A stretch of DNA of 64,000 nt from Watersipora subatra. Taxonomy: Eukaryota; Bryozoa; Gymnolaemata; Cheilostomatida; Watersiporidae. The translations under genes and the position numbers were made by a program. Positions within the stretch are counted from its first letter, which is position 1; each line of letters opens with the position of its first letter. The DNA lies in assembly GCF_963576615.1 (NCBI RefSeq), contig NC_088708.1, positions 2,418,001-2,482,000 on the forward strand, given 5' to 3'. Positions 11,101-64,000 of the stretch are shown piece by piece. A model generated the notes under the pieces. It was given only the letters and a program-made list of their open reading frames with translations, did no database searches and was not told the origin of the DNA.

Positions 11101-14100
11101 TCGATATCTTTAAAATTGACAAAATGACAGAGTTTTAAAGATTGAAAACACTGACAAAAAGCAAATAATGAGAAAACGTTGCCTAAAGTTTGGGAATAGA
11201 AAACGGATGATTTCTTTACAGGTATGGGCAGATGGATTGTCTCATACACTTTTAAAACCCTCCACTTGAATATGTATTATTAAAACCCTCCACTTGAATA
11301 TGTATTATCATCTGGTGCAGCTGACCTTCTGTTTGCCTTCCTAGCAGCAATTACCACAGGTTCAGCTGCCTTGTTTCTACGTACCACCAGGCAGCGATCA
11401 ATATCTCTGGCATATTGTCTCTGGAAGTGGCCAACATTCAGTCCAAGTTATGAGTGTTTTAAAGTGGTTTGACATACTTTTTAGTGGCAGCAATGGAAAG
11501 AGCACACTTGAATTATATAGGAAACATGTTTTTTTTAAACAATTTTTTTGAAAAAAAATTACTATTTTGAAGATGCCTTCTAACCTTAAAACTGTCCGCA
11601 GATATAAGAACAATTCCTAAACACATCATTGTCATAGACGCTCAGCAGATACAGTAACAATGTTGAGATGCTCAGCAGATACAGTAACAATGTTGAGATG
11701 CATGTTTTAAACACTGTCAGAAGATACTTTAAGATATAATAAACATGGTTGATACATGTGGTATTTTAAATACTTATAATAAAAACAATAATATTGTTAC
11801 AATACTAGGATTACAGCTGAAAAACCTCTTAACATTTGACCAAAAGTGAAATTTTCCAAATTATCTTCCTTGTAATACAACATATATTTATTCAATAGTC
11901 CTCAAAATCGCTCAAGGGTCTCTTCACTTTTTCACAATATTCACTGGTTTCATGACCTTCCACCATCCGTGGTATATATGTAAACCTCCAAACCATCACG
12001 CCTCCATCCCTTCTTATCTGCACCAGCATCAGTATACATCTATTTCCCTACACCGCTTCAACTATTTTATCTGCGCCTGCAACAGTATATCTCTACCTAC
12101 TCCCTAGACTCCTCCATTCCACTTTATCTGCACCAGCAACAGTATATCTCTACCTACCCCCTAGACTCCTCCATTACACCTTATCTGCACCAGCAACAGT
12201 ATATCTCTACCTACTCCCTAGACTCCTCCATTCCACCTTATCTGCACCTGCAACAGTATATCTCTACCTAACCCCTAGACTCCTCCATTCCACCTTATCT
12301 GCACCAGCAACAGTATATCTCTACCTACTCCCTAGACTCCTCCATTCCACCTTATCTGCACCAGCCTCAGCACATACCTAGCTACTCCCTATCCCCCTTC
12401 ATTGGGACCTTCGGTGCACCAGCCTCGGTATATGCCTACCTAGCCCCTATACCTTTCCATCTGACCTTATCGGCACCAGCTTCGAGATACACCCACTTCC
12501 CCATATCCTCCATCCAAACCTATCAGCACCAGCCTCAGGATATACCTATATATTTTCACCCCTCTATCCCTCCCTATGTACACCAGTCTCAGAATATACC
12601 GCGATTCTGCCTTAAAACACAAAGTTCTGTCAATTTTTTGTTCTTCTTTTGTTCAATTGATATGATGACCTTAAATGCCACACAGGCAAAGGGTCAGCAC
12701 CTGGGAGCATCCGATCTTTCATCGATGTAGGTGACTGAGCCATCAGCTGATGCAACTGAAATAACATGGCCATCCACCTCGCTCATATACATGTGTCGCA
12801 CTTCATCCTCTGATAGATACGCCTGCAAGATTTCAGATCTCGAGCATCAGAATGATATCAAGTATAAAAAATCTACTTTCTGCAAATGGTAAACTGCGAT
12901 ACAAATACTTAGTGTGGCCCTTTCTATTCTATACCACAGCATTAAGGCTAAACTTGTAGGAGTTTGTATGTTTAAAGACAAACAAACATTGACACTAAGT
13001 CCAACATACTTATGTGTTCAGTCTATGGTTCTGATGGCACTAGCACTAGGTCCAACACAATCATATGTTCAGTCTATGGTCCTGATGGCACTAGCGCTAG
13101 GTCCAACACAATCATATGTTCAGTCTATGGATCTGATGGCACTAGCACTAGGTCCAACACAATCATATGCTCAGTCTATGGTTCTGATGGTACCAGCACT
13201 AGGTCCCATATACTTATGTGTAGAGCCTATGGTTCTGATGGCACTAGCATTGAGTCCAGCGTATTGATTTTTTTGTTCCAATTACATGTACCTTAACAAC
13301 ACTCATGCCCCTTGGCTAACTCTGTTAACACCAAGCACATTTTCTACTGTTAAATGTTAATGGAAATGACAAACCTGTTCCTGTAATAATTTTTTATAGT
13401 CGACAAAAATTGAAAGAAATTGCGGACAATGACCCTCATGCATAACCTCTTTGGGCAGTAAGGAAGAAACTAATAGAAAGGTAATTTTGTATAAAGCACA
13501 CAAAGATTGAAATTGAGGGTAGGCAAGGTGATGTTTGGCATAGATGTGAACAATATGATGGTGAGCCGTTCTCCTGCATAGCTGGTGGTCCTGGAAGATG
13601 GAGACTAATTCACCATGTTTTAACTCAAAAGCCGTCTCTATATTTTAACAAGGCTAGAACAGAATTGTATAAACAACACTGTTGAAACAGCTGCTATTTT
13701 AAGCAATGGAACAATTTTAATAAAACTAAACTCACCAAAGAAAATGATTGCTTATTGGCATCACACCTGCGGACTGTGCCATCATAGGATGCGGTGTGGA
13801 GTATGTGATGGTTGTAAGAAGAGAAGAGGCTACAATTTACTGGCCGGACATGTGGCTTGAACAGACAGACACCCGCATCAGCAGCCTCTTCCTCACATCC
13901 AGGTATCTAGACAACCAATTGAAGAAATTGCGGCTTATACAACACAACATATGTGATCTTCACTGTTCCAGCAGAGTTGCTTTGGTCAGAGGTGTACTGG
14001 CTCGAGTCAGGAGAAATGAGCACTACTGAATTTATTGCACTAGAGTTATGAATGTTTGTAATGTAAAGTTATATAAAATACATAGACAGAGAAATGTATA

Positions 14101-33190: not shown

Positions 33191-33487
33191 CAGCTAAAAA
33201 AGAGTTATATATATATATAACTACCTGACGATTGCAGCTAGCTCGCTGGCTGTATGAAACTAATGGTTGTAGTAATAAATTGAATAAACTTTACCCAAAT
33301 ACTTTTATGTATTTTAGCTCTATTTTATATTGAGCACTTTCAGTGTACATATATGAAACAAAGTATATATGTGTATATATATATGTATATATATATATAA
33401 TAATTTAAAAGAAGATAAAAATTTTGACTATTATATTTACACTACTAATAGTTTCAACATGTATGGTCCCTCAAAGAGAAAAACATC

Positions 33488-33932: not shown

Positions 33933-34552
33933 TATGCACTGCCTTTATGGCATTGAGCACTTTTTAGTCAGAAGATTTCCACTAGATATATTAGTATATA
34001 TATATATATATATATATATATTACATTAGATGAAAGAAAGATACATGTATTATTGAGCCTTATTATTTTACCGACCAATGATTGCGGCTGACTAAGGAGG
34101 AGATGACGAAAGAAAATCATGTTCCTTACGTTTAATGTAAATGTCATTTTACTTGACAACAAAAATTACATAGGAATGAGTTATGTGTAAGATGAGCAAA
34201 GAAAAGAACTTATGTACATGTCTTTGCACAAGAAGAACCAAAGAATGTTGTTAAATGTTAACCTAAAGTTAACATTTTTCATTTAATTATCACTTGGTTT
34301 TACATTTTTAGCTTTCGTCAGTTTCACCCAAACCCTTCAAACAAAACCCCATCCAATAAAATTTACTGTTGCTTGCCTTGCATTGAAACATTGTAAAATG
34401 TTTCAATCTTATCATGGAAGCTTCTCCATGGGAAAAAAATTGGCAGCATGATGGTGCACAGTAAAGTTAATTAACTGCACTATTATCATAGATGAAAAAG
34501 GTACCCTTAATGCTGAGCAAGCTTCAGACCTACACCAGGTCTTGATTGCTGT
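33933..34552. other. Intergenic DNA with (TA)n microsatellite
   Basis: A (TA)n run at about 33991-34021 is the only clear feature. No gene is recognised. Confidence 0.5.
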
Positions 34553-34759
34553 GAGCTCTATATATGTGGTAGCAGGAGCTCTATATATGTGGTAGCAGGA
34601 GCTCTATATATGTGGTAGCAGGAGCTCTATATATGTGGTAGCAGGAGCTCTATATATGTGGTAGCAGGAGCTCTATATATGTGGTAGCAGGAGCTCTATA
34701 TATGTGGTAGCAGGAGCTCTATATATGTGGTAGCAGGAGCTCTATATATGTGGTAGCAG
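34553..34759. repeat. 23-bp minisatellite, exactly 9 copies
   Basis: Nine virtually identical copies of 'gagctctatatatgtggtag' + 'cag' (207 bp). The absence of divergence suggests recent expansion or homogenisation. Confidence 0.97.
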
Positions 34760-35781: not shown

Positions 35782-38700
35782 CACTCTGGACACTTACAGT
35801 TTCTCTGGACACTTACAGTTACTCTGGACACTTACAGTTACTCTGGACACTTACAGTTACTCTGGACACTTACAGTTTCTCTGGACACTTACAGTTACTC
35901 TGGACACTTACAGTTACTCTGGACACTTACAGTTACTCTGGACACTTACAGTTACTCTGGACACTTACAGTTACTCTGGACACTTACAGTTACTCTGGAC
36001 ACTTACAGTTACTCTGGACACTTACAGTTACTCTGGACACTTACAGTTTCTCTGGACACTTACAGTTACTCTGGACACTTACAGTTTCTCTGGACACTTA
36101 CAGTTACTCTGGACACTTACAGTTACTCTGGACACTTACAGTTACTCTGGACACTTACAGTTACTCTGGACACTTACAGTTACTCTGGACACTTACAGTT
36201 TCTCTGGACACTTACAGTTACTCTGGACACTTACAGTTACTCTGGACACTTACAGTTACTCTGGACACTTACAGTTACTCTGGACACTTACAGTTACTCT
36301 GGACACTTACAGTTACTCTGGACACTTACAGTTACTCTGGACACTTACAGTTACTCTGGACACTTACAGTTACTCTGGACACTTACAGTTACTCTGGACA
36401 CTTACAGTTACTCTGGACACTTACACTCTGGACACTTACAGTTACTCTGGACACTTACAGTTACTCTGGACACTTACAGTTACTCTGGACACTTACAGTT
36501 ACTCTGGACACTTACAGTTACTCTGGACACTTACACTCTGGACACTTACAGTTACTCTGGACACTTACAGTTACTCTGGACACTTACAGTTACTCTGGAC
36601 ACTTACAGTTACTCTGGACACTTACAGTTTCTCTGGACACTTACAGTTACTCTGGACACTTACAGTTTCTCTGGACACTTACAGTTTCTCTGGACACTTA
36701 CAGTTACTCTGGACACTTACAGTTACTCTGGACACTTACAGTTTCTCTGGACACTTACAGTTTCTCTGGACACTTACAGTTACTCTGGACACTTACAGTT
36801 ACTCTGGACACTTACAGTTACTCTGGACACTTACAGTTTCTCTGGACACTTACAGTTTCTCTGGACACTTACAGTTACTCTGGACACTTACAGTTTCTCT
36901 GGACACTTACAGTTACTCTGGACACTTACAGTTACTCTGGACACTTACAGTTTCTCTGGACACTTACAGTTACTCTGGACACTTACAGTTACTCTGGACA
37001 CTTACAGTTACTCTGGACACTTACAGTTACTCTGGACACTTACAGTTACTCTGGACACTTACAGTTTCTCTGGACACTTACAGTTACTCTGGACACTTAC
37101 AGTTACTCTGGACACTTACAGTTACTCTGGACACTTACAGTTACTCTGGACACTTACAGTTTCTCTGGACACTTACAGTTACTCTGGACACTTACAGTTT
37201 CTCTGGACACTTACAGTTTCTCTGGACACTTACAGTTACTCTGGACACTTACAGTTACTCTGGACACTTACAGTTTCTCTGGACACTTACAGTTTCTCTG
37301 GACACTTACAGTTACTCTGGACACTTACAGTTTCTCTGGACACTTACAGTTTCTCTGGACACTTACAGTTACTCTGGACACTTACAGTTTCTCTGGACAC
37401 TTACAGTTACTCTGGACACTCACAGTTACTCTGGACACTTACAGTTTCTCTGGACACTTACAGTTTCTCTGGACACTTACAGTTACTCTGGACACTTACA
37501 GTTACTCTGGACACTTACAGTTACTCTGGACACTTACAGTTTCTCTGGACACTTACAGTTACTCTGGACACTTACAGTTTCTCTGGACACTTACAGTTTC
37601 TCTGGACACTTACAGTTTCTCTGGACACTTACAGTTTCTCTGGACACTTACAGTTTCTCTGGACACTTACAGTTTCTCTGGACACTTACAGTTACTCTGG
37701 ACACTTACAGTTTCTCTGGACACTTACAGTTACTCTGGACACTTACAGTTACTCTGGACACTTACAGTTACTCTGGACACTTACAGTTACTCTGGACACT
37801 TACAGTTACTCTGGACACTTACAGTTACTCTGGACACTTACAGTTACTCTGGACACTTACACTCTGGACACTTACAGTTACTCTGGACACTTACAGTTAC
37901 TCTGGACACTTACAGTTACTCTGGACACTTACAGTTACTCTGGACACTTACAGTTACTCTGGACACTTACACTCTGGACACTTACAGTTACTCTGGACAC
38001 TTACAGTTACTCTGGACACTTACAGTTACTCTGGACACTTACAGTTTCTCTGGACACTTACAGTTTCTCTGGACACTTACAGTTTCTCTGGACACTTACA
38101 GTTACTCTGGACACTTACAGTTTCTCTGGACACTTACAGTTTCTCTGGACACTTACAGTTACTCTGGACACTTACAGTTACTCTGGACACTTACAGTTTC
38201 TCTGGACACTTACAGTTACTCTGGACACTTACAGTTACTCTGGACACTTACAGTTACTCTGGACACTTACAGTTACTCTGGACACTTACAGTTACTCTGG
38301 ACACTTACAGTTTCTCTGGACACTTACAGTTACTCTGGACACTTACAGTTTCTCTGGACACTTACAGTTTCTCTGGACACTTACAGTTACTCTGGACACT
38401 TACAGTTACTCTGGACACTTACAGTTTCTCTGGACACTTACAGTTACTCTGGACACTTACAGTTACTCTGGACACTTACAGTTACTCTGGACACTTACAG
38501 TTACTCTGGACACTTACAGTTACTCTGGACACTTACAGTTTCTCTGGACACTTACAGTTACTCTGGACACTTACAGTTTCTCTGGACACTTACAGTTTCT
38601 CTGGACACTTACAGTTACTCTGGACACTTACAGTTACTCTGGACACTTACAGTTTCTCTGGACACTTACAGTTTCTCTGGACACTTACAGTTACTCTGGA

Positions 38701-41095
38701 CACTTACAGTTTCTCTGGACACTTACAGTTTCTCTGGACACTTACAGTTACTCTGGACACTTACAGTTTCTCTGGACACTTACAGTTACTCTGGACACTT
38801 ACAGTTACTCTGGACACTTACAGTTTCTCTGGACACTTACAGTTTCTCTGGACACTTACAGTTACTCTGGACACTTACAGTTACTCTGGACACTTACAGT
38901 TACTCTGGACACTTACAGTTTCTCTGGACACTTACAGTTACTCTGGACACTTACAGTTTCTCTGGACACTTACAGTTTCTCTGGACACTTACAGTTTCTC
39001 TGGACACTTACAGTTTCTCTGGACACTTACAGTTTCTCTGGACACTTACAGTTTCTCTGGACACTTACAGTTACTCTGGACACTTACAGTTTCTCTGGAC
39101 ACTTACAGTTACTCTGGACACTTACAGTTACTCTGGACACTTACAGTTACTCTGGACACTTACAGTTACTCTGGACACTTACAGTTACTCTGGACACTTA
39201 CAGTTACTCTGGACACTTACACTCTGGACACTTACACTCTGGACACTTACAGTTACTCTGGACACTTACAGTTACTCTGGACACTTACAGTTACTCTGGA
39301 CACTTACAGTTACTCTGGACACTTACAGTTACTCTGGACACTTACACTCTGGACACTTACAGTTACTCTGGACACTTACAGTTACTCTGGACACTTACAG
39401 TTACTCTGGACACTTACAGTTTCTCTGGACACTTACAGTTTCTCTGGACACTTACAGTTTCTCTGGACACTTACAGTTACTCTGGACACTTACAGTTTCT
39501 CTGGACACTTACAGTTACTCTGGACACTTACAGTTACTCTGGACACTTACAGTTACTCTGGACACTTACAGTTTCTCTGGACACTTACAGTTACTCTGGA
39601 CACTTACAGTTACTCTGGACACTTACAGTTACTCTGGACACTTACAGTTACTCTGGACACTTACAGTTACTCTGGACACTTACAGTTACTCTGGACACTT
39701 ACAGTTTCTCTGGACACTTACAGTTACTCTGGACACTTACAGTTTCTCTGGACACTTACAGTTTCTCTGGACACTTACAGTTACTCTGGACACTTACAGT
39801 TACTCTGGACACTTACAGTTACTCTGGACACTTACAGTTTCTCTGGACACTTACAGTTACTCTGGACACTTACAGTTTCTCTGGACACTTACAGTTTCTC
39901 TGGACACTTACAGTTACTCTGGACACTTACAGTTACTCTGGACACTTACAGTTTCTCTGGACACTTACAGTTTCTCTGGACACTTACAGTTACTCTGGAC
40001 ACTTACAGTTTCTCTGGACACTTACAGTTTCTCTGGACACTTACAGTTACTCTGGACACTTACAGTTTCTCTGGACACTTACAGTTACTCTGGACACTTA
40101 CAGTTACTCTGGACACTTACAGTTTCTCTGGACACTTACAGTTTCTCTGGACACTTACAGTTACTCTGGACACTTACAGTTACTCTGGACACTTACAGTT
40201 ACTCTGGACACTTACAGTTTCTCTGGACACTTACAGTTACTCTGGACACTTACACTCTGGACACTTACAGTTACTCTGGACACTTACAGTTTCTCTGGAC
40301 ACTTACAGTTTCTCTGGACACTTACACTCTGGACACTTACAGTTTCTCTGGACACTTACAGTTTCTCTGGACACTTACAGTTTCTCTGGACACTTACAGT
40401 TTCTCTGGACACTTACAGTTACTCTGGACACTTACAGTTACTCTGGACACTTACAGTTTCTCTGGACACTTACAGTTTCTCTGGACACTTACAGTTACTC
40501 TGGACACTTACAGTTACTCTGGACACTTACAGTTACTCTGGACACTTACAGTTACTCTGGACACTTACAGTTACTCTGGACACTTACAGTTACTCTGGAC
40601 ACTTACACTCTGGACACTTACAGTTACTCTGGACACTTACAGTTACTCTGGACACTTACAGTTACTCTGGACACTTACAGTTACTCTGGACACTTACACT
40701 CTGGACACTTACAGTTACTCTGGACACTTACAGTTACTCTGGACACTTACAGTTACTCTGGACACTTACAGTTACTCTGGACACTTACAGTTACTCTGGA
40801 CACTTACACTCTGGACACTTACAGTTTCTCTGGACACTTACAGTTACTCTGGACACTTACAGTTACTCTGGACACTTACAGTTTCTCTGGACACTTACAG
40901 TTTCTCTGGACACTTACAGTTACTCTGGACACTTACAGTTACTCTGGACACTTACAGTTACTCTGGACACTTACAGTTACTCTGGACACTTACAGTTACT
41001 CTGGACACTTACAGTTACTCTGGACACTTACACTCTGGACACTTACAGTTTCTCTGGACACTTACACTCTGGACACTTACAGTTTCAACACAGAA
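35782..41095. repeat. 5.3-kb satellite of a 19-bp unit (ctctggacacttacagtta), about 280 copies
   Basis: The unit is 'ctctggacacttacagtt' plus a final A or T, a two-state variant. A 15-bp short unit lacking 'gtta' (reading '..cttacactctgg..') occurs about fourteen times, for example near 36422, 36532, 37858, 37970, 39228 and 39345. Other changes are almost absent (one 'cactcacag' near 37430). Pairs of short units about 110 bp apart recur every 1.37-1.44 kb, implying a higher-order repeat. The plus strand has no stop in any frame, so an 1803-codon open frame (35723-41134) spans it. That frame is best explained as an accident of unit composition. Confidence 0.97.
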
Positions 41096-43157: not shown

Positions 43158-46100
43158 ATGGTAATTAATAGCTATTAGGTTTATTATTATGTTGTCGTTT
43201 TATCTGCTGTTTTAACAAAAAAGTTCATGGTGTTTGTTATTTAGTTATGCGATTTGCATGATTGCTTTAGACAAGCGGTATAATCAGATCGCGCAAAGTA
43301 TTTGTACCCTACAAAACTTACTAGTTTTACTACTAGTTGTTTTTTATTATTGGACGATTATGGTGTGAATATTGTTACAAGTTTACTAGTAAATTACTAA
43401 TTTACGCCGAGCAAATTTCCAGGATCAAGTCGTAGCAGGTGTGTATGTAACTATGAGTGCAACAAAATGCGTAGCATGTTTTCTCGTGACATGTAAACTC
43501 TAATTGACCAAGTTGAATATAATATGCAAACTATGCTTAATAATAAGATTTTATTCATTTGAAAAGGCTCTCGGTAGCTCGATACGTTAATCAACACAAT
43601 TATAGAGTCTTATTAGGGGTAGTGTTAAATTTTGCGCTGCTGCATTATGTGTTAAAAGCGATCGCTTTTTCAAGTGTTTATTATAGTTGACAGTCTTGTA
43701 CTGATAAGGCCTACTAAATTTGCACCAAACAAATTCGGGTAATTTCAGATTGAATTTGGGTGAATACTTAAATGCTCTATAGTTGCACCTAATACAAGCC
43801 TAACTAGCATATTAAAAAAAAATTTTAGTTTCACACAGCTAAGCACTATTTTGAAAACGGCTAAAACAATCTTATTTTAAATATTTGCTATCAATGTGTA
43901 CCTGAAAAAACTTCCTTTCAATGAACCCCTTTATTCCATCATAATTAGAATACAGTGCAGCTTCTGTTTCCAAATGTCACAGATCGTGAGCAAATTAGAA
44001 GTAATTAATAGTTAAAACAAATAATTTAATATTTCTTTACTTTGTACCTCTGATAAAAATTCAGAGCCTAAATGCCATAGAGATAAACCGAGGAAACCTG
44101 ACGATGCAGCTCAGTTCCAAACTAATGTTCTCCCTCATTATTTTTAGTATTCAACTGTTTTATGTAGACCATATTGAAAGTGTACATGTCAGTATGTGAA
44201 TATGTGATTTGCTGCTAGTTCATGATCTACAAACAAAACATGCAACTGATACTGAGATATTGTTTTCTTAGTTGGACCATATAGATGCATTTGGATATAT
44301 ATATTGGTGAGATACTTCGAAAATGTCTAGCTTCAAGTTGACATGAATTTATTGCTTTGAATTGATTTTAGGCTCCACCATGTTACGCAGATTTGGGAAA
44401 GAAAGCATTGGACCTTCATACTAAAGACTTCCGTGAGTAACCCGAACTGATCACGAATGCCATATGTAGCCTATTTCAAATCTTGCTTTGCTACTTGGGA
44501 AAGGAAACTATCATACATTGTACCATCATACCGATTTTATGTTCATTTGTAGATCCTGGATTGGTAAAATTTCAGGCTAAAACAAAGTCAGTCGATGGAC
44601 TAAAGTTTAGCACTGGGGGTCAGAGAGATATGGAAAGCGGGAAGATGTTGGCCGGCAGCGAGGTTACCTTCAACTGGCCAGATTACGGTAGAATATTGGT
44701 TTAATATTCATAGGATGGCTTGCATTGGGCTTTGATTTGTATGGGCTCGGACAATACAATTATTGTTGATTCTGTTTTATCTCTCGGCGCCTACAATATA
44801 TTTCTTCATAAAAACCACTGTCAGTTGTGTACATGTTAGAAACCTTCACAACAGCCTGTGACAGCAATGAAATTAACCATTTCAAGATTGGAATTAATTT
44901 TCCCATTACAGAGGTCATAAGTAATTTCATTTTACTAAAAATAGTAATTTAACAATTTGCAATTTAAATATTGTCCATCAAGTTTTGCTGAATTGTTGCT
45001 TTTAACAAACTTTTGCATTGCTAAAATCTTCATAGCTATAAAAATAAGTAATGTTGAACACTTTCTCTAAGAACTTTGTATCATGATCACTATTTTTGGT
45101 TTGTGCAATTCTCCAACTAACCATAATGTGGCTATAGCACTCTTGCAGTTGAAAGAGAGTTCAAATTCAGTGATTGCAAAGATTCTTTGTTTTCTAAATT
45201 CTTAAAAATTCTAACATTTTAACATTCACGTTTTTTCTTTCACAACTTCTAATCGTAATTTCTAGCTAATGTACAACCTTAGTTCATTGCTAGTAGGCAT
45301 TGCTAGGCAAACCCAAAAAAATGTAAAATGGCTGCGCAAAGATTTTTTGTTTCAAAAGATGAAAACATCTGCTTAGAGTCAATTACTTACATACAGTCAA
45401 TGTTCAATGAAGTTCATGTTCACATGTATTAGCGAATTTACGAAAAGACGTAAATGCCTGACAACCAATTGTAAAAGAATGTTTTCCTGTTAAAATAATA
45501 TGTTGTTACTTTTAGTTTTTTTATATTTCATCTCAATATATCAACATTATTGAATTTTAGTTGCTTGTTTCTGCACAATGAAATGGCCCGTCGTACTGTA
45601 TTCAATGAGTGAAGTCAGGTTATTTTCAAAGTAAGCATGTGATTGAGTAAGTAACCTTACCGATGTCTGCTAACCCATTTGACGCAGTTGTCATCACACG
45701 ACCCTTCAAAACACAACTTGTGGTGTCAGTGTAGTTTTTGTCTTGTACATTGGCAGTTTTATATGCATTTCAGGCCTGAAGTATGTTGAGAAATGGAATA
45801 CAGCTAATGACTTGGTAGTCGACATGTCACTCGAAGACAAGTTGCTTGAAGGTGCCAAAGTATCATTTGTTTCCTCCATTAACCCAACAACAAAGAAGAA
45901 AAAGGGAACTGTGAAAACATCGTACAAGAGTGAATATTTTAACGGCAATGTCGATGTAGACTTAGACTATGGTGGTCCAGTCATAAAAAGTTCACTGGTA
46001 GGAGGGTAAGTAGTAACAACTTTTAATGGAGAATCTTGCTATTTAATAATCATTTACACACTCATAAGTTTATGATGTTTGCCTGAGGCTTTACACAGTC

Positions 46101-49100
46101 ATCACAGTTTTACACATAATTTTGTCGATTGCTAGTCTAACAAAATATATGTGTTTGCGTCTGTTTACTTCCAAAATATACTTTTTCAATTCAAATTCCA
46201 AAGCATGAAACCTCTATAAGTTTTTATAGTAAGATAATTCTACAAAACCTATTTTTCCCCATGCACACATTTCATCAGCTGGTAGTATAAGCGAGTACAA
46301 GTGGTGAAACAAGCCGTTTCTTTATTCTGAGTGACAGCAGTAATTACACCTATATCATAGCTCTTTAACCTCTTAGTCATCATGCAAGCTAGTCATGACT
46401 ATGCAGTTTCCAATACGCTATACTAATGTTATTGACACCATCTGCAGTTGCCTTTAGTCGCTTTATATTATGCGCACAGTGCTCACTCAACATTCCTTTA
46501 GCTTGCAACTCATAGAGAAACTTTTATTTTTATTCAGAAGAAATTCGTTATAGGAATGTTTTCCATTTCAAGGGTTTGTGCGGTTTGTTTCTTGTCGGTT
46601 TAGTCTCAACCTAGTCCACCGCCTATACTCCACCATTTTAGGTATAACGGCTGGTTTGCTGGATACCAGATGAGTTTGAATGCTTCCAAAAAGGCTCTCA
46701 CGGACAACAATTTTGCACTGAGTTATGATGGTGGTGACCATATACTCCATGCAGCAGCGTAAGCATATTGTTCAGTCTGCCAATACCCATGTTCGTCTGT
46801 TTCTCCTCACCTGGTCATTTCAAAGTCTCTAGCATGCAATGATCAATTCACAAAGCTATCTGTTGCAATTTACTTTGAGGTTATCAATTGATATGTGACA
46901 TAATTCTCATTTTACCTGTCACACCTTTGCAGCATTGCTGTCGTTTGCAGCATTGCTATCGCTACTGCCTACCAATTGTTATAGCTAACTTATCTATATA
47001 GTTGGTGTACGCTACCTAAATTAAGAATTATGATAGGCTAATTTTTCATCATTTTGCTGTAAGATGTTGCTTTTCTTACAATACTTTAAAGCCATGACCT
47101 TGCGCCTACCGAAGCCAACCAAAGTTTCTAATGAACTGTGACAAAAGTCCGGAAATTGACATTTTTCGAACTACTTTTTGTTCGGTCATCGCGTGATTCC
47201 ATTTATATTCTGTGATTTTTACCTGTTCATAAATACGCAGTTCATGGGTGACATTAAATGCCATTTCACAACCAAATAATGTGAATATTGGATTCACTAA
47301 TGATATGTTCTCCAATCAAGTGCAAGCTTCGGTTATGCCTAGCTGAACCAATTTAAACATGAACAAAGCCTTTCGGTTGCAAGTTTTTACACTTCATTCA
47401 CATCAGCTCTATTTTTCAACTGAAGCTTCCGACGTCAAAAGCGTCTCTCTGGTTGATGTGTGGCCACCCCTGTAGGTCCTTTGTCATGTGGTACCAGTCA
47501 CTAATCACTCCTCACCTTTACAACTCCCTTAGTCATCACTATGGTGGCAAAACACGTGTGTGCTGATAACTCCCATTTGCTGGCACTTAGCAACGACTAC
47601 TAGTTAAGGCAGATCAAATTCAGATATTGGAACTGGTTGTGAGGCTCAGTCTAAGACAGCTAAGGCACTTGACTGAATTTATGATTTATTGCCTAGTAGT
47701 TATTGCTTTCTACTACACAATTTTTCTTTCTTGCCTTATGTCAGCTGGCCACTTCAACATATTATAGTTTTCTAACAAGCTTATTGTAGCTGTGAAACTG
47801 TTTCATTTTGATGTATGGCAACCTGCTTGACAAAGTTAGTTTACTTTCTTGCTGTTCTGATTATCAGCTGTAATGTACAGATCTCGGTAGTCATTTACAA
47901 CCCTAGTACTACAGGAGGGTTTTGAGTCTCACCATCATAATCAAATCTAGAAAACGACATGGTCCATTATTGTAATCATGGAAGAAATAATTTGAAATGG
48001 TTACTAGTTAAAACTAGTTATTACACTCTCTATGTGCTGCACTACAGATGTAGGTGTATTATATGGATAACATTGCAAGAGAATTAATGAAATAAGGTGG
48101 TTCAATAAATCAACTCCATTTTTGATGATGTTGTAATGTGGTTACAGAGCCTATAAGGTAAGCCATTATCAGATCCATGTATAATTATTATGGTTCTGCA
48201 ATACATGAAATACCCTAACAAAACTTGTACCACATCGGTGCCTAAATAATATCCTTCTTATCTACTGGTAAAAAGGTTTTGTGTTATAATATTTGCTGCT
48301 GGGTTTTGGTCATCATATTGCTATAGATGGAGTCCTCCCTAGTAGTATATTATAGACATAATTCAATTAGCGATTTCTAACTACACAAATAGCCTGGGAT
48401 ATCATGAGCCTTTTCATGTCTGATAAATACGTAATTACCTAAATGCCATGATTATACAGAATCATAAGAATCATGAGTCTTTTGCAGGACATGCAAGCTG
48501 TGTTACTAACCTTTTATTAGACAAACACAATTATTAAGATGGTACCATTATATGCTTCTCCAAATGAATTAATATTCTTTTCTGTTCCATTTTGTTTGAT
48601 GAGTAATCTTGGTTTGCAGTAAGAATGGAGTAGATTTCCGTGGCTCTTACTTCCATAAATACAGTCCTGAAATTGAACTCGGTCTGGCTGGTGAATTCTC
48701 TTCAGCAACCAAAAGAACCCAGGGCGGCGCTATTCTCAAATACATTGCTTCTGAGGACACCTCCATGAAGGTCAAAGTTGGAATAGTTGGCCTTTTAGGG
48801 CTATCTGTACAGCAGAAGCTCACTCAGAGTGAGTATTCATTACAGCCAATTACTACTTAGGTGTAAAACTTGTGCTAGGGGTTAATTGCTCTGCCAGCCA
48901 ACCCATAATTGTGCTCGTTGGCTTTCGTTATTTCCTATAAAAAAAATTTTACTGTTTCTATGATAAAACATCAGCAAGTTGAAATTTATATAGTATTCCC
49001 TTTTGATATTCGCATTAGATTTTGCACCAAGAGCGTTTGTAATTTGTTTGCAGGTACAAACCTCACTCTCTCAGCTCTCATAGATGCCAAGAACATTACA

Positions 49101-49145
49101 GCTGGTGGCCATAGAGTTGGAATGAGTCTGGAGTTTGAACAATAA
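43158..49145 (+). CDS. VDAC: Voltage-dependent anion-selective channel (mitochondrial porin), 7 coding exons
   Basis: Exons: 43158-43160 (ATG only), 44372-44432, 44553-44687, 45774-46005, 46642-46758, 48620-48828, 49054-49145. All introns are GT-AG and phases join exactly, giving 849 nt and 282 aa, the usual VDAC length. VDAC forms the 19-stranded beta-barrel of the outer mitochondrial membrane that passes ATP, ADP and other metabolites (family knowledge). Seen: N-terminal helix segment APPCYADLGKKALDL; GLVKFQAKTKS; DYGLKYVEKWNT, with Glu72 equivalent to human Glu73; YNGWFAGYQMSL; KNGVDFRGSYFHKYSPEIEL; and the closing porin signature ALIDAKNITAGGHRVGMSLE + FEQ. The start exon contributes only the Met codon (AAAATG/GTAATT); it fits phase 0 and VDAC gene structure but is the least certain exon. 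An intron of about 1.9 kb (46759-48619) is the longest after the first. Confidence 0.93.
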
Positions 49146-54978: not shown

Positions 54979-57900
54979 TTAGGCTGACATATCCGTGGAT
55001 AGACTTAGCTCAGGTTCACTCAGCTGATCATGCGAGTCGTGTAAGTTAACGTCTGCCGAGACCGAGTTGTTACAACTATTTGAACCATGACTGCCATTAT
55101 CTGCTGCTTCCAGCTCCGCTGGCACACCGGCATTCACAAAGTCTTCGACGTAAGAGTGGGCTAATTCTTTGGGCAATGGTTCTTCATCATCGGAATAGAG
55201 AAGTTGTGGAGGCTTGTGTTGTCTCTTGTACTCCAATGTCTGCAAAAACTGCTCGGTCGCTGATAATGTATTAACAAGTTCACGGTGAATTCTCTCTTTC
55301 ATTGCCTTTATGTCTTCTTTCTCTGCAGAAGGTGGACATGGTAAGGGGGAGAGCGCTACGTCACTGCTCCCGCTACGCACATCATCAAGATCCCAACTTT
55401 GGCCAAAAGAATCCTCTGAATAGCTGAAGGAATGACTTGATGCTGCATTGGAAGCAGGAATAGCAGTAGGAATGTTTACATCCACGTGACTTGCAGGCAA
55501 ACCCAAGGTCAATCTTCCTTGCGCCGAACTTCGTGATGATTTTCTACTGGTAACCGAGAGTCTCTTTTGTGAGAGGGTTATAGAGTTTCCTCTACTCACA
55601 GTCAGGGCGTTGGACTGACCATTACATAATTTGGAAGACTCCATTAGCGGCCTTTGTAAATTCTTGGGAGTAACCTTGGGTGGCGGTCTACCTTGTTTAT
55701 TTCGTGAATGAGAGTTATCTCCCTTTATTATATTATTTTTGAAGTTGGTTAGAGCCTCTTTAGGTACGGTGATAGATAAGAACGTCTTAGAGCCAGACAG
55801 TCCATTTGGTGTTATAGTTGGTGTTGATTTAACTAAATTTCGTTTCGTAAAAGGCTGATAAGCAGGTTTTGTTAAATTTTTTCCACGCTCTTTAGTATCC
55901 GTAAATCGTTCAACCGCGACAGCCTGAAACGAAGGGAGAAACATCAGTCAGCAAAAAAACCGACTAATATCTTTAAAAAAAATTACACCTATTCGCTAAG
56001 GTGAATCTATTCTTGTAAAATGAATACAACCAGTCAGTTTGTCTATAGTTGAATGCTTGTGAAGGAATCTCTTTCAAACAATACCTTTATCTACCATTTA
56101 ATCGTGATACCAAACATGCAAATTCGATTTTAGCGGAACAAGACTAATCAACCAGCTTAAAAATGGAGCGAGTGTTTAAGAGTTTTGAGTCCGATAAGAG
56201 TTTCGATTCCGATATTGTTCAGGTAGGAGTAAGCGGGTTTTATTCACTCCAACTTGCTGTACTTTTAGCAAGTGAATAACGGCAAAAAACCTCTTAGGTG
56301 TGTAGCTCGCTGATTGGTTAATCTATGGAAAACTACAACACAATTTATATTGAAAGATCTATTGAACTGGTGAGAGAGCAGCTGGTTTTGTATGATCTAA
56401 TCAACTCTGATTACAAAAAACTTCTGTAAAATTTAATAACTGGACGGAGTTGTAGAAATACTCAAGACAATGGAATTATTGCTTTTTAATAAAAGCTTGC
56501 TATTGTGTTGATATCTTTACGGGTGGTTTGGAGTACATGTTGCAAAGCTTTATGGATAAATAAAAATATCTGCCTAATACGCAGGGATAAAAGCAGTTAC
56601 CGAAAATATGATTAAGGATGAGACAAATGCAATTTTCAATATATCATCCTTTCACATGGAATAATACCTACATGTACATGTATGGCTTAGTATTATTAGC
56701 TTACATTATGGCTGTATGTATGTTTTTTGCATACTACAGTACATACTACAGTACATACTACAGTACATACTACAGTACATACTACAGTACATACTACAGT
56801 ACATACTACAGTACATACTACAGTACATACTACAGTACATACTACAGTACATACTACAGTACATACTACAGTACATACTACAGTACATACTACAGTACAT
56901 ACTACAGTACATACTACAGTACATTGCATTACAAACAAAATGACAAGTTTTTTACAAATTTTGATACTGATTCTCCACAAAATTGATATTTTATTGAAAA
57001 TAAAATCTTTCATGAACGAGCATTTACATATTTATTGAAGATGTCAGTAGCAATAAAATTTTATTTGTGATAATGTAGAACTGCAGGCAGCTGAAATATA
57101 CACTGCGTTTATCCGAGCAACAGCTAGAGTAAACTGTGAACACTGCATACTATAAATGTACCTTCACACCGGGTGCTGACTCCTCAGCTTCTCTTGAGTT
57201 AGCCTCAGGTTCATGCAAGACCGCGTATGACGGCATCGTGCATTGCCTCACTATGTGCGCTCTGACATTCGCAGGCAAACTGGGTGTCTTAATCTTGCTC
57301 AGAGGCTTCGCGGTTGACTTGAGAGGAAACTTAGATAGATTTTTCTTTCTTTGAACTTCTGTTCCAATAGCTTGGCTTGATTCATCTACTAATTTGGACT
57401 CAATCAAGGGGGACACTTTTTCTTTATCGACTTTCTCGCTGCCTTTTAGAGGTAGCTCTACCTCTTTAGACTCTTTGGATATCTCAGGGACTCTCTTTTC
57501 TAAATCTTGATAGATCTGTGAAAGGGTTTAATAAACCAAAGATGAGAGAACTGAACATAAAAAGTTTTCTTTAAAACATTCGTATCCAGCATATTTAAAA
57601 CCCTTAATTTGATAGCCAATCTACAATTAAGGAAAGACTACGGTGATTTAAGAGAACTTTCAAAACTACCTTCTTGAACAAAAGTAACCGTTTACTTGGC
57701 AGCAGATGCAATCTTCTAAACCCAGCACAGAGTTGGCTACAACGGCTTTACAAAACTGGCAATTACGAAAACGAAAATAATTTTAGGCATGTTTTTATTG
57801 TCACTTTTAATCGTGGCAGAAATCGTTGTCAACTGTAACTAGAAATAAACTTCATAAACAAACTTCTCAATTTAAAATAAAATTAGCTTAGTACAAAGAG

Positions 57901-59848
57901 CATGGCACAAATGCTTTTCTTTTTAGTATAAAAACGCTGCATTTATTGGTTGTTTTCTCATGACATTAACCCATTTTTAAACAAACTGTCTTTTCTGTCA
58001 CTTTAAAAAGTAAAAATTCTGAAAAGCAAATCGTCAAATAAAGTTGCATGTGATTTACTTTATGCCCTTAACTCTTGGTAGCTATGTACATCATCAGCCT
58101 GAAGAAAGCAAGTGCTAGTAAACAGAATGCTACTAAAACACAGCAGCTGGTAAATTGGTATATTAAACCATTTCTGCTTTGTATATTTTTGATTACGAAC
58201 CTGAGGCATGCAGACTTTTAAGAGACTAACTCTATATGACTTTTACATATTTCGATGTTATCTCTATGTACTGTAAGTTCAAATAAAGGTTAGCTACATG
58301 ACCACATGACTGCTTATGCGTTAACTATGCACCAAAAAACGATGCATGCTAAACATCTAATTTAAAAGAACATTCATAATTGAATACATCAACTCAGGAG
58401 CTATCTACTTGAGTTGTAACTCAAATCGCTAGTGAATCTATATATGCATATAAATCTCAAAATTTGTGCGTCATCTGTAATTCTGCGAATCGATGTGTAC
58501 AGCTATATTTATTTAAACCTTTCTCATTCTAAAATATTTATTTAAATATTTTAGAATGAAAAACTCGACTCATGTGGGATTTGAACTCACAAAGATAACC
58601 ACCACAAGATTCAAACCCTGTACATAACCACTGAGCTACACAGTCATTAATAATAAGAAGCTACACAACTACACATTTTCTTGCAGATCATAACCACAAA
58701 ATGTACTAAAGTTATTGTAGGTGATTGATCTACAATAACTTTAGTGCATTGTTAACCTCTAGTGCATTGTTAGTAACTATAGTTACTAAGGTTAACGTAT
58801 TGTTTTGTTACTATTTTTTAATGATGATGATTTTGATGATTTTTACTAAGAGGTGATTGCATTAGACAATCACTATGGGTTTCTATACCACTCTATTATG
58901 TCTATCTGATACTTTTGCCTTATGATGCCAGCACTGAAACAAACGAAAATCGTATAATTGTACACCAAATAATTTTTCATTGTAATCATGGTAAAATAGA
59001 TGATATTTAGCAAATACTTGCTAATGATTTCACATTTATATCTAAACCCCTTGACAGTTTTACTTTTCCCCAATTTAGTTCAACAAAACACTTCTTGAAT
59101 TATATAAAATTGAAACGTTACAGTCGTTTGAAAATGTTTGAAAACCTTTACAGTTGTTTTATTTTTTCTCTTAACTCATTTGAAACGCAAAAAACACTTT
59201 TCTCATAATATGAAGGTTAAAAGTTACAATGGTAAATAATGTATAAATTTTTTTTCTGTCCAAAGACTTTTATTACCCAGGCAATGCCAGGCATTCACCT
59301 AGTCCTGTCATAAAACAGAAAACATGACACCTTCCATAGTTCATTGCTTCCTGAAGCCGTTTACAAAAATTCACAATTCGAATTTTATTTAAAATGTATG
59401 GCTTCTCACCTGCTCCTTTTCTAAATTAGATATAGAATGTGATATCTCAAGCTTTGTGATGGGGGTCTTACGACCGCAGAGGCCAACAGTTTCAGCCTGT
59501 TCTTGGCAGACAATGAAGCCTGAGGGCCTTCTGGCTGAATGAGCCGGGGTGTATGGCCGTGACGAGTAATCCTTATGAAAGACCACTGGTGTCGTTTCAC
59601 TCATACTCTGACAGCAAACAAATATGTCCACTTACACACTAATCGCTGCTACAATTCTAATAAACGAGAAGTCATTTCCTGTAGTCACACATGAAAGATC
59701 AAAATTATGTTGCGTCTAACAAAATTATTGACTGATTACCTTTGGAGTCTCTTCTGTCTTTGGCCCACATACTGGGATAACTTTGTTTACATGTGCAGCT
59801 TGTTCAAAGCAAAGTGGGATAAGGGAGCCGGCTTCTTCACTCTCCAAT
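54979..59848 (-). CDS. Unrecognised Ser/Lys/Pro-rich protein, last four exons (5' end outside window)
   Basis: Exons on the minus strand: 59848-59740, 59607-59410, 57515-57162, 55923-54979. Splices are CCAAAG/GTAATC...TGTCAG/AGT, GAGCAG/GTGAGA...CACAG/ATC, GTGAAG/GTACAT...TTTCAG/GCT. The last three junctions are phase 0 and the first exon begins with one base of a split codon, so at least one exon lies further right, beyond the repeat array. The visible protein is 534 aa, mostly predicted disordered: HKDYSSRPYTPAHSARRPSG, RKTPITKLEISHSISNLEKE, a Lys/Glu-rich block, VTPKNLQRPLMESS, SRKSSRSSAQGRL, then an amphipathic helix (EDIKAMKERIHRELVNTLSA) and an acidic tail ending LSLSTDMSA. Regular exon phases and uninterrupted frames support a real gene. 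I do not recognise the family; a cytoskeletal or scaffold protein is only a guess. Confidence 0.75.
55924..56731. other. Intron of the unidentified gene
   Basis: Non-coding apart from the adjacent array; nothing else is recognised. Confidence 0.45.
56732..56925. repeat. 12-bp minisatellite (tactacagtaca), about 16 copies
   Basis: 194 bp of perfect 'tactacagtaca' repeats in an intron of the minus-strand gene. The array is free of stops in at least five of six frames, which explains the overlapping open frames on both strands (YYST, TVHT and ILQY on plus; VVCT and MYCS on minus). No coding role is inferred. Confidence 0.97.
57516..58555. other. Intron of the unidentified gene
   Basis: AT-rich. 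An inverted pair 'tcattctaaaatatttattt' / 'aaatattttagaatga' lies at 58522-58560. No other feature is recognised. Confidence 0.45.
58565..58652 (-). ncRNA. tRNA-like sequence (tRNA pseudogene or SINE head)
   Basis: On the minus strand: 'tgtagctcagtggttatg' gives a near-canonical box A and D arm, an anticodon-like arm follows (ACAGG/CUUGU pairs, eight-nt loop), and 'gtgagttcaaatcccac' gives a good box B and T arm. The acceptor stem pairs only at its outer four positions, and the anticodon loop is one base too long. A functional tRNA is therefore unlikely. The neighbouring repeat blocks (58680-59305) favour a SINE or retroposed tRNA. Confidence 0.55.
58688..59305. repeat. Dispersed repeat blocks shared with 2.6, 18.7 and 24.6 kb
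   Basis: 58688-58760 ('cataaccacaaaatgtacta', 'aagttattgtaggtgattga') is related to 24615-24690 and inverted 2690-2740. 59120-59305 (aaaacctttacagttg, ttctgtccaaagac, ttattacccaggcaatgcca) matches 18700-18895 end to end. It lies inside an intron of the unidentified gene. Confidence 0.65.
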
Positions 59849-62800
59849 CTAATAAGAACCGGAACAAATATACTGCGGATATCTAATAAGAACCAGGACA
59901 GATATACTTAAGATATCTAATAAGAACCAGGACAGATATACTTAAGATATCTAATAAGAACCAGGACAGATATACTGAAGATACCTAATAAGAACCGGGA
60001 CAGATATACTGAAGATACCTAATAAGAACCAGGACAGATATACTGAATATATCTAATAAGAACCAGGACAGATATACTGAAGATATCTAATAAGAACCAG
60101 GACAGATATACTGAAGATATCTAATAAGAACCAGGACAAATATACTGAATATATCTAATAAGAACCAGGACAGATATACTGAAGATATCTAATAAGAACC
60201 AGAACAGATATACTGAATATATCTAATAAGAACCGGGACAGATGTACTGAAGATATCTAATAAGAACCGGAACAGATATACTGAAGATATCTAATAAGAA
60301 CCAGGACAGATGTACTGAAGATATCTAATAAGAACCAGGACAGATATACTGAATATATCTAATAAAAACAAGGACAGATATACTGAAGATATCTAATAAG
60401 AACCAGAACGGATACACTAAAAATATCTAATAAGAACCAGGACAGAGATACTGAGTATATCTAATAAGAACCAGAACAGATATACTGAAGATATCTAATA
60501 AGAACAAGGACAGATACACTGAAGATACCTAATAAGAACGAGGACAGATATACTGAGGATATCTAATAAGAACCGGAACAGATATACTGCGGATATCTAA
60601 TAAGAACCGGGACAGATGTACTGAAGATATCTAATAAGAACAAGGACAGATATACTGAGGATATCTAATAAGAACCAGAACAGATATACTGAAGATATCT
60701 AATAAGAACCAGGACAGATACACTGAAGATATCTAATAAGAACCAGAACAGATATACTGAAGATATCTAATAAGAACCAGGACAGATACACTGAAGATAT
60801 CTAATAAGAACCAGAACAGATATACTGAAGATATCTAATAAGAACCAGGACAGATACACTGAAGATATCTAATAAGAACCAGAACAGATATACTGAAGAT
60901 ATCTAATAAGAACCAGGACAGATACACTGAAGATATCTAATAAGAACCAGGACAGATATACTGCGGATATCTAATAAGAACCGGGACAGATGTACTGAAG
61001 ATATCTAATAAGAACCAGAACAGATATACTGAAGATATCTAATAAGAACCAGGACAGATGTACTGCGGATATCTAATAAGAACCGGGACAGATGTACTGA
61101 AGATATCTAATAAGAACCAGAACAGATACACTGAAAATATCTAATAAGAACCAGAACAGATATACTGAAGATATCTAATAAGAACCAGGACAGATGTACT
61201 GAAGATATCTAATAAGAACCAGAACAGATATACTGAAGATATCTAATAAGAACAAGGACAGATACACTGAAGATACCTAATAAGAACGAGGACAGATATA
61301 CTGAAAATATCTAATAAGAACCAGAACAGATATACTGAAGATATCTAATAAGAACCAGGACAGATACACTGAAGATATCTAATAAGAACCAGGACAGATA
61401 CACTGAAGATATCTAATAAGAACCAGAACAGATATACTGAAGATATCTAATAAGAACCAGGACAGATACACTGAAGATATCTAATAAGAACCAGAACAGA
61501 TATACTGAAGATATCTAATAAGAACCAGGACAGATACACTGAAGATATCTAATAAGAACCAGAACAGATATACTGAAGATATCTAATAAGAACCAGGACA
61601 GATACACTGAAGATATCTAATAAGAACCAGAACAGATATACTGAAGATATCTAATAAGAACCAGGACAGATATACTGAATATATCTAATAAGAACAAGGA
61701 CAGATATACTGAAGATATCTAATAAGAACCAGAACGGATACACTAAAAATATCTAATAAGAACCAGGACAGATATACTGAGTATATCTAATAAGAACCAG
61801 AACAGATATACTGAAGATATCTAATAAGAACAAGGACAGATACACTGAAGATACCTAATAAGAACGAGGACAGATATACTGAAAATATCTAATAAGAACA
61901 AGGACAGATACACTGAAGATACCTAATAAGAACGAGGACAGATATACTGAAGATATCTAATAAGAACCGGAACAAATATACTGCGGATATCTAATAAGAA
62001 CCAGGACAGATATACTGAAGATGTTTAATAAGAACCAGGACAGATATACTGAATATATCTAATAAGAACCAGGACAGATATACTGAAGATATCTAATAAG
62101 AACCAGGACAGATATACTGAAGATATCTAATAAGAACCAGGACAGATATACTGAAGATATCTAATAAGAACCAGGACAGATATACTGGAAATATCTAATA
62201 AGAACAAGGACAGATATACTGAAGATATCTAATAAGAACCAGAACGGATACACTAAAAATATCTAATAAGAACCAGGACAGATATACTGAGTATATCTAA
62301 TAAGAACCAGAACAGATATACTGAAGATATCTAATAAGAACCAGGACAGATATACTGAAGATGTTTAATAAGAACCAGGACAGATATACTGAAGATATCT
62401 AATAAGAACCAGGACAGATATACTGAGGATATTTAATAAGAACCGGGACAGATACACTGAAAATATTTAATAAGAACCAGGACAGATATACTGAGTATAT
62501 TTAATAAGAACCAGGACAGATATACTGAAGATATCTAATAAGAACCAGGACAGATATACTGAAGATGTTTAATAAGAACCAGGACAGATATACTGAATAT
62601 ATCTAATAAGAACCAGGACAGATATACTGAAGATATCTAATAAGAACCAGGACAGATATACTGAAGATACCTAATAAGAACAAGGACAGATATACTGAAG
62701 ATATCTAATAAGAACCAGGACAGATATACTGAGGATATTTAATAAGAACCGGGACAGATACACTGAAAATATTTAATAAGAACCAGGGCAGATATACTGA

Positions 62801-64000
62801 AGATATCTAATAAGAACAAGGACAGATATACTAGAGATATCTAATAAGAATAAGGACAGATACACTGAAGATACCTAATAAAAACGAGGACAGATATACT
62901 GAAGATATCTAATAAGAACCGGGACAGATATACTGAAGATACCTAATAAAAACCGGGACAGATATACTGAAAATATCTAATAAGAACCAGGACAGATATA
63001 CTGAAGATATCTAATAAGAACCAGGACAGATATACTGAAGATATCTAATAAGAACCAGGACAGATATACTGAAGATACCTAATAAGAACCAGGACAGATA
63101 TACTGAAGATACCTAATAAGAACAAGGACAGATATACTGAAGATATCTAATAAGAACCAGGACAGATATACTGAAGATATCTAATAAGAACCAGGACAGA
63201 TATACTGAAGATATCTAATAAGAACCAGGACAGATATACTGAGGATATCTAATAAGAACCAGGACAGATATACTGAAGATATCTAATAAGAACCGGGACA
63301 GATATACTGAAGATGTTTAATAAGAACCAGGACAGATATACTGAATATATCTAATAAGAACCAGGACAGATATACTGAAGATATCTAATAAGAACCAGGA
63401 CAGATATACTGAAGATATCTAATAAGAACCAGGACAGATATACTGAAGATGTTTAATAAGAACCAGGACAGATATACTGAATATATCTAATAAGAACCAG
63501 GACAGATATACTGAAGATATCTAATAAGAACCAGGACAGATATACTGAAGATATCTAATAAGAACCAGGACAGATACACTGAAGATATCTAATAAGAACC
63601 AGGACAGATATACTGAGGATATCTAATAAGAACCGGGACAGATATACTGAAGATGTTTAATAAGAACCAGGACAGATATACTGAAGATATCTAATAAGAA
63701 CCAGGACAGATATACTGAAGATATCTAATAAGAACCAGGACAGATATACTGAATATATCTAATAAGAACCAGGACAGATATACTGAAGATATCTAATAAG
63801 AACCAGGACAGATATACTGAAGATATCTAATAAGAACCAGGACAGATATACTGAAGATGTTTAATAAGAACCAGGACAGATATACTGAATATATCTAATA
63901 AGAACCAGGACAGATATACTGAATATATCTAATAAGAACCAGGACAGATATACTGAAGATATCTAATAAGAACCAGGACAGATATACTGAAGATATCTAA
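59849..64000. repeat. 34-bp tandem array, more than 120 copies, continuing past the window
   Basis: The unit is 'atctaataagaaccaggaca' + 'gatatactgaagat' (34 bp). Variants include ccgg/cagg/caag, tatact/tacact/tgtact and gaagat/gaatat/gcggat/gatgtt. Variant combinations recur in blocks, for example 'gaacggatacactaaaaat' at about 60406, 61734 and 62232, showing segmental amplification. On the minus strand each unit reads as a pyrimidine-rich tract ending TTCTTATTAG/AT. The last unit supplies the acceptor of the exon at 59848. Confidence 0.97.

Follow-up and report, generated by a model that had tools for sequence, protein, structure and literature searches.

Tandem repeats at intron-exon boundaries

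The mirage minisatellites of amphioxus are tandem repeats whose units contain intron sequence together with part of an exon. According to excerpted text, they occur in Adh3 and in the globin genes BflGb6 and BflGb9, are unstable in length (also somatically) and evolve in concert within clusters, with units of 10-72 bp in Adh3; the duplicated acceptors that they carry were reported not to disturb regular splicing (PMC3087553). Variable internal tandem repeats also alter exon-intron structure in human segmental duplications. As far as the excerpts of that study go, these units of about 30 bp are present in about four copies on average, half of them lie in coding sequence, and they are tied to exon or intron elongation and to some new introns formed via cryptic splice sites (PMC2812944). 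A third repeat of comparable unit length is the 38-bp VNTR in intron 6 of TERT, which the excerpted source does not describe as ending at a splice site (PMC11830802).

The window, i.e. the whole stretch of 64,000 bp of DNA that was analysed, contains a minisatellite of 34-bp units (59849-64000, minus strand) that runs up to a predicted exon. It is similar to the amphioxus mirage repeats in that a tandem repeat meets a (predicted) intron-exon boundary with splice signals in many copies: 110 of the 122 units end in TTAG, and these sites score on average at the 97th percentile of background AGs. Mirage units span the exon-intron boundary, whereas here the similarity ends two bases into the predicted exon. 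The copy number is also different, with at least 122 units versus 6 and 3 in two BflGb6 haplotypes, and while mirage units at the boundary are described as excluded from homogenisation, the terminal unit here equals an internal one. Regular splicing at the terminal boundary in cDNA is a mark of mirage repeats; the junction described here is predicted from genomic sequence (the mirage side of these comparisons follows the same excerpts of PMC3087553). The mirage repeats are the nearest known case, of which the 34-bp array is regarded as a variant rather than a member, because its unit holds only two exon bases and so fails the defining feature.

With the repeats in human segmental duplications the array shares the approximate unit length, but it extends over 4 kb and lies on the intron side (excerpts of PMC2812944); with the TERT repeat it shares the unit length and a predicted intronic location (excerpts of PMC11830802). 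Among the matches listed in a search of open-licence papers, a weak negative given that scope, no array of comparable size ending at an acceptor was recognised.

Structure of the 34-bp array

TRF delimits the array at 59847-64000, with 122.2 copies, 92% matches and 0% indels. In the register that starts at 59849 there are 122 complete, indel-free units (59849-63996) followed by four bases, with ATATCTTCAGTATATCTGTCCTGGTTCTTATTAG as the consensus in the sense of the minus strand. The units stand head-to-tail and their length falls within the 10-100 bp that characterise a tandem minisatellite. Since the array extends past the window end at 64000, with its far flank outside the window, the 122 units are a lower bound. 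The units are represented by 40 different sequences, the most frequent of which occurs 21 times, and the mean pairwise identity is 92.3%. Identity is slightly in excess at lags of 2, 4 and 6 units, and also of 22, and blocks of up to seven units recur; both patterns fit local duplication. No further copy of the 34-mer is present on either strand of bases 1-59800 of the window at up to 8/34 mismatches, and a 27-base piece of it has no exact match in the viral and prokaryote collections, animal genomes being outside the scope of that search.

On the minus strand 107 of the 122 units end in TTCTTATTAG; TTAG closes 110 units and TTAA the other 12. A second AG, part of a CAG in 116 units, is found at unit positions 9-10 in all 122, which brings the total number of AGs across the array to 233. 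The preliminary description of this DNA had proposed a 34-bp array with more than 120 consecutive acceptor-like sites, and the array is indeed present in a single register. Its statement that every unit ends in a pyrimidine-rich tract and the acceptor motif applies to the large majority but is overstated, as 12 units end in TTAA. There are 110 acceptor-like TTAGs, and the AG total is 233 and not about 120. A branch-point-like yTnAy recurs at a fixed position in all 122 units (plus a single occurrence elsewhere), 14 nt upstream of the interior AG and 38 nt upstream of the next TTAG. At 11 of the 121 unit junctions (59984-63113) the sequence reads TTAG/GTATC, in which a donor-like GT comes immediately after the acceptor, an arrangement also known from recursive splice sites.

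The unit has 16 invariant columns out of 34. No run of columns that includes one variable column or none is longer than 9, a length not clearly beyond chance (P 0.09). The predicted RNA fold of the last seven units is modestly more stable than that of shuffled sequences (z -2.3), with 6 of 200 shuffles equally stable. Neither the column constraint nor the fold is good evidence of function.

Acceptor strength of the repeated sites

Potential acceptors were scored with a position matrix built from 14 acceptors (10 CAG, 4 TAG) that were curated by eye in three gene models, three of them in the array-bearing gene and the others in two genes, one VDAC-like and one WD40, for each of which only one exon has search support; with so few sites the scores are rough, and the leave-one-out scores of the curated acceptors range from -9.4 to 9.9. 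The 110 array TTAGs reach on average the 97.3rd percentile of 7414 background AGs, and the acceptor-like character that had been suggested for the unit ends on the minus strand is in this way confirmed. The 121 interior AGs that could be scored lie on average at the 87th percentile. The use of TAG is consistent with an intronic location of the array, as 4 of the 14 curated acceptors are also TAG.

As a control, arrays with a period of at least 12 and at least five copies were scored on both strands. There are nine of these, together covering 12113 of the 64000 bp (19% of the window); the dinucleotide tracts at 33364-33399 and 33986-34021 and arrays of under five copies were left out of the count. 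AGs above the 95th percentile occur at 26.5 per kb in the 34-bp array (110 of 231), versus 2.7 per kb in non-array DNA. Seven of the other arrays have at most 10.5 acceptor-like AGs per kb, but the array at 34553-34759 (plus strand) is denser still, with 43.5 per kb (9 of 27 AGs). Iterated acceptor-likeness is therefore not special to the 34-bp array. The unit of the array at 34553-34759 (23 bp, nine copies, 100% matches) repeats an acceptor-like CAG and lies away from the curated exons.

The predicted gene and its first visible exon

The array borders on a minus-strand gene model of four exons: exon 1 of the visible part (59740-59848, 109 nt, donor AAG/GTAATC), exon 2 (59410-59607), exon 3 (57162-57515) and a last exon that includes the stop codon (54979-55923). 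Together these encode an open frame of 534 aa plus stop, and the three internal GT/AG junctions are all in phase 0. A 20-nt exon (59350-59331) that had been considered was dropped, as exon 2 can be spliced directly to 57515 in phase 0. A second minisatellite (56730-56924, minus strand), with a 12-bp unit in 16 copies, is found within the predicted intron that precedes the last exon, away from the exon edges.

The gene product does not reach the cut-off of any Pfam family. Its best match, to DUF4545 (PF15078), scores 16.3 bits versus a curated cut-off of 27 (E 0.005), so that the protein is not assigned to that family. The match spans exons 1 and 2 and was obtained with queries of 109 and 118 aa; the 109-aa query carried seven residues of the dropped 20-nt exon and the match is unchanged without them. 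Neither exon alone, nor the full 534-aa protein, gives a match to DUF4545 at E up to 1. DUF4545 may be linked to C1orf141; a literature search on that link did not find the term DUF4545 among the matches listed. Exons 1 and 2 with the seven residues retrieved nothing from the PDB at E up to 1.

The coding potential of exon 1 was evaluated by codon log-odds trained on 1112 codons from exons elsewhere in the window. Read in phase with exon 2, exon 1 has a score of 3.0, which exceeds 97% of 812 open 108-base stretches from introns and 89% of 3624 such stretches in DNA taken as intergenic, but falls below 23 of 24 coding chunks, those chunks being part of the training set. An alternative frame, with one stop, scores 8.0. 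The coding evidence for exon 1 is equivocal and forms the weakest link of our reading, and it therefore leaves room for a 5'-UTR exon or for no exon at all.

Such a situation would arise if the array preceded the gene, with a 5'-UTR exon or no exon at 59848, translation starting at the ATG of exon 2 (59604, MSETT...) and the match at the boundary being due to chance or to a promoter-side edge. We consider this arrangement unlikely, yet the most serious of the alternatives. The weak coding signal of exon 1 speaks in its favour, as does the fact that no in-frame ATG of the visible gene precedes the one in exon 2. Against it stand a 36-codon open frame with a GT donor that joins exon 2 in phase, and the weak DUF4545 match, which needs both exons together. 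Contact with an exon edge is moreover special to the 34-bp array as far as is visible in the window: among the 17 testable array ends the next closest is 171 nt away from a curated exon edge, so that all others are more than 170 nt away, although the curated edges come from three genes and other array-exon contacts could have been missed.

Array edge and choice of acceptor

The boundary of the array lies two bases inside the predicted exon. Read on the minus strand, the last unit (59882-59849) has the candidate acceptor TTCTTATTAG at its end and is followed by ATTGGAGAGTG, of which only the first AT continues the repeat. This terminal unit departs from the consensus at 5 of 34 positions, but the internal unit at 61957-61990 has exactly the same sequence, so that the terminal one need not have been left behind by exchange between units.

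The minus strand of the array (4152 bp) contains no ATG and 42-44 stops per frame, and no open run in it exceeds 33 codons. Translation of exon 1, if it is coding, must therefore begin past the visible array, which has to be removed by splicing at a junction downstream of the first in-frame stop, a TAA at 59908-59910 (minus strand). Provided that exon 1 is translated in phase with exon 2, just 2 of the 233 array AGs preserve that frame, i.e. those giving exon starts at 59848 and, 24 nt upstream, at 59872; 78 others are in phase but run into a stop, and 153 shift the frame. Use of the remaining 231 AGs would therefore be expected to break the message in most cases instead of diversifying it. 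Any exon upstream of the array would lie outside the window and, for either of the two candidate starts, would have to contribute two bases of a split codon.

The final unit had been proposed to supply the acceptor of the exon starting at 59848. It does abut an exon-like segment with a plausible site, whose score of 2.5 (97.8th percentile) is above 8 of the 14 leave-one-out scores, but the frame also allows a start at 59872, and 59848 should be regarded as the candidate acceptor rather than an established one. The array could be intronic with the CAG at 59873-59875 as acceptor, in which case the protein would gain eight residues (IFVPVLIR) through the in-frame extension at 59849-59872 (minus strand). 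The first AG beyond about 10 nt from the branch point is usually taken, and under such scanning the yTnAy at 14 nt before the interior AG, versus 38 nt before TTAG, favours the interior site. The frame also stays open with an unchanged phase, and the interior AG is present in all 122 units, compared to 110 for the terminal one; fixation of an AG within an array can, however, arise from turnover alone. The matrix favours TTAG, as the CAG scores -4.0 (75th percentile) against 2.5 (98th), and the coding score of the eight additional codons is -3.7. Branch-point position and matrix score point to different acceptors. We consider the CAG an improbable choice.

Origin and possible consequences of the array

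On balance we lean towards a reading in which an intronic minisatellite grew up to the edge of an exon and now supplies its acceptor, the upstream sites being mostly ignored by virtue of the exon's donor. This builds on the array, its position at the edge, the acceptor-likeness of its sites and, provided that exon 1 is coding, the consequences for the frame; to these it would add an intronic status, the acceptor used, exon definition and a history of growth. Unequal exchange or replication slippage may have expanded an ordinary intronic minisatellite of a repeat-rich genome, probably that of an animal, as far as the exon start, where growth would have stopped because insertions of 34 bp would break the exon. 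The acceptor of the intron would hence reside in the last unit, as the TTAG before 59848 or as the CAG 24 nt upstream. Upstream sites would be mostly ignored because exon definition presumably acts from the exon's own donor, 109 nt downstream, and favours the nearest acceptor; splicing that slipped to an upstream unit would yield a transcript with a broken frame. In the gene models arrays are found in introns elsewhere too: two of the nine are in introns of the WD40 gene and one is in another intron of the array-bearing gene.

Growth of the tract out of the intron's own 3' end, as had been suggested, is a possibility. An effect of the array on acceptor choice, or slippage-dependent splicing, is at present a prediction only. 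A functional role as a copy-number-tunable ladder of more than 230 competing poison acceptors, the array length setting the productive fraction of transcripts and hence gene output, would suit the acceptor-like sites and the 231 of 233 AGs that are unproductive if the exon is coding, but is very improbable given the loss of the terminal AG in 12 of 122 units, the 9-column stretch that does not clearly exceed chance (P 0.09), the modest fold (z -2.3) and the iteration of similar sites at 34553-34759, away from curated exons.

If the junction is real, the locus offers a natural test of how the spliceosome settles on one of more than 200 almost identical acceptors, and sets exon definition against first-AG scanning; the exon edge would then be set by a repeat array, which comes near to the mirage concept of how introns evolve. 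Should the segment at 59848 not be an exon, this is just another array in a repeat-rich stretch.

Other features of the window

Rfam (at gathering scores) and ARAGORN gave no matches in the window. A sequence at 58641-58560 (minus strand) resembles tRNA A and B boxes by eye, possibly as part of a SINE, and is included in that absence of matches. At 6835-8306 (minus strand) two overlapping frames resemble a DDE-type transposase, with no Pfam match for the one that was scanned. The minus-strand WD40 gene, of which one exon is closest to DDB2 in the PDB, contains minisatellites in predicted introns at 12067-12480 and 12993-13249, neither of which is at an exon edge. The VDAC-like (mitochondrial porin) gene at 44372-49144 (plus strand) has TAG at 3 of its 6 curated acceptors. 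The intron-rich genes, the VDAC-like exon and the WD40 exon closest to DDB2 suggest that the DNA is from an animal. Finally, a 19-bp array of 282 copies (35783-41084) is located inside three overlapping plus-strand open frames of 1830, 1807 and 1778 codons.
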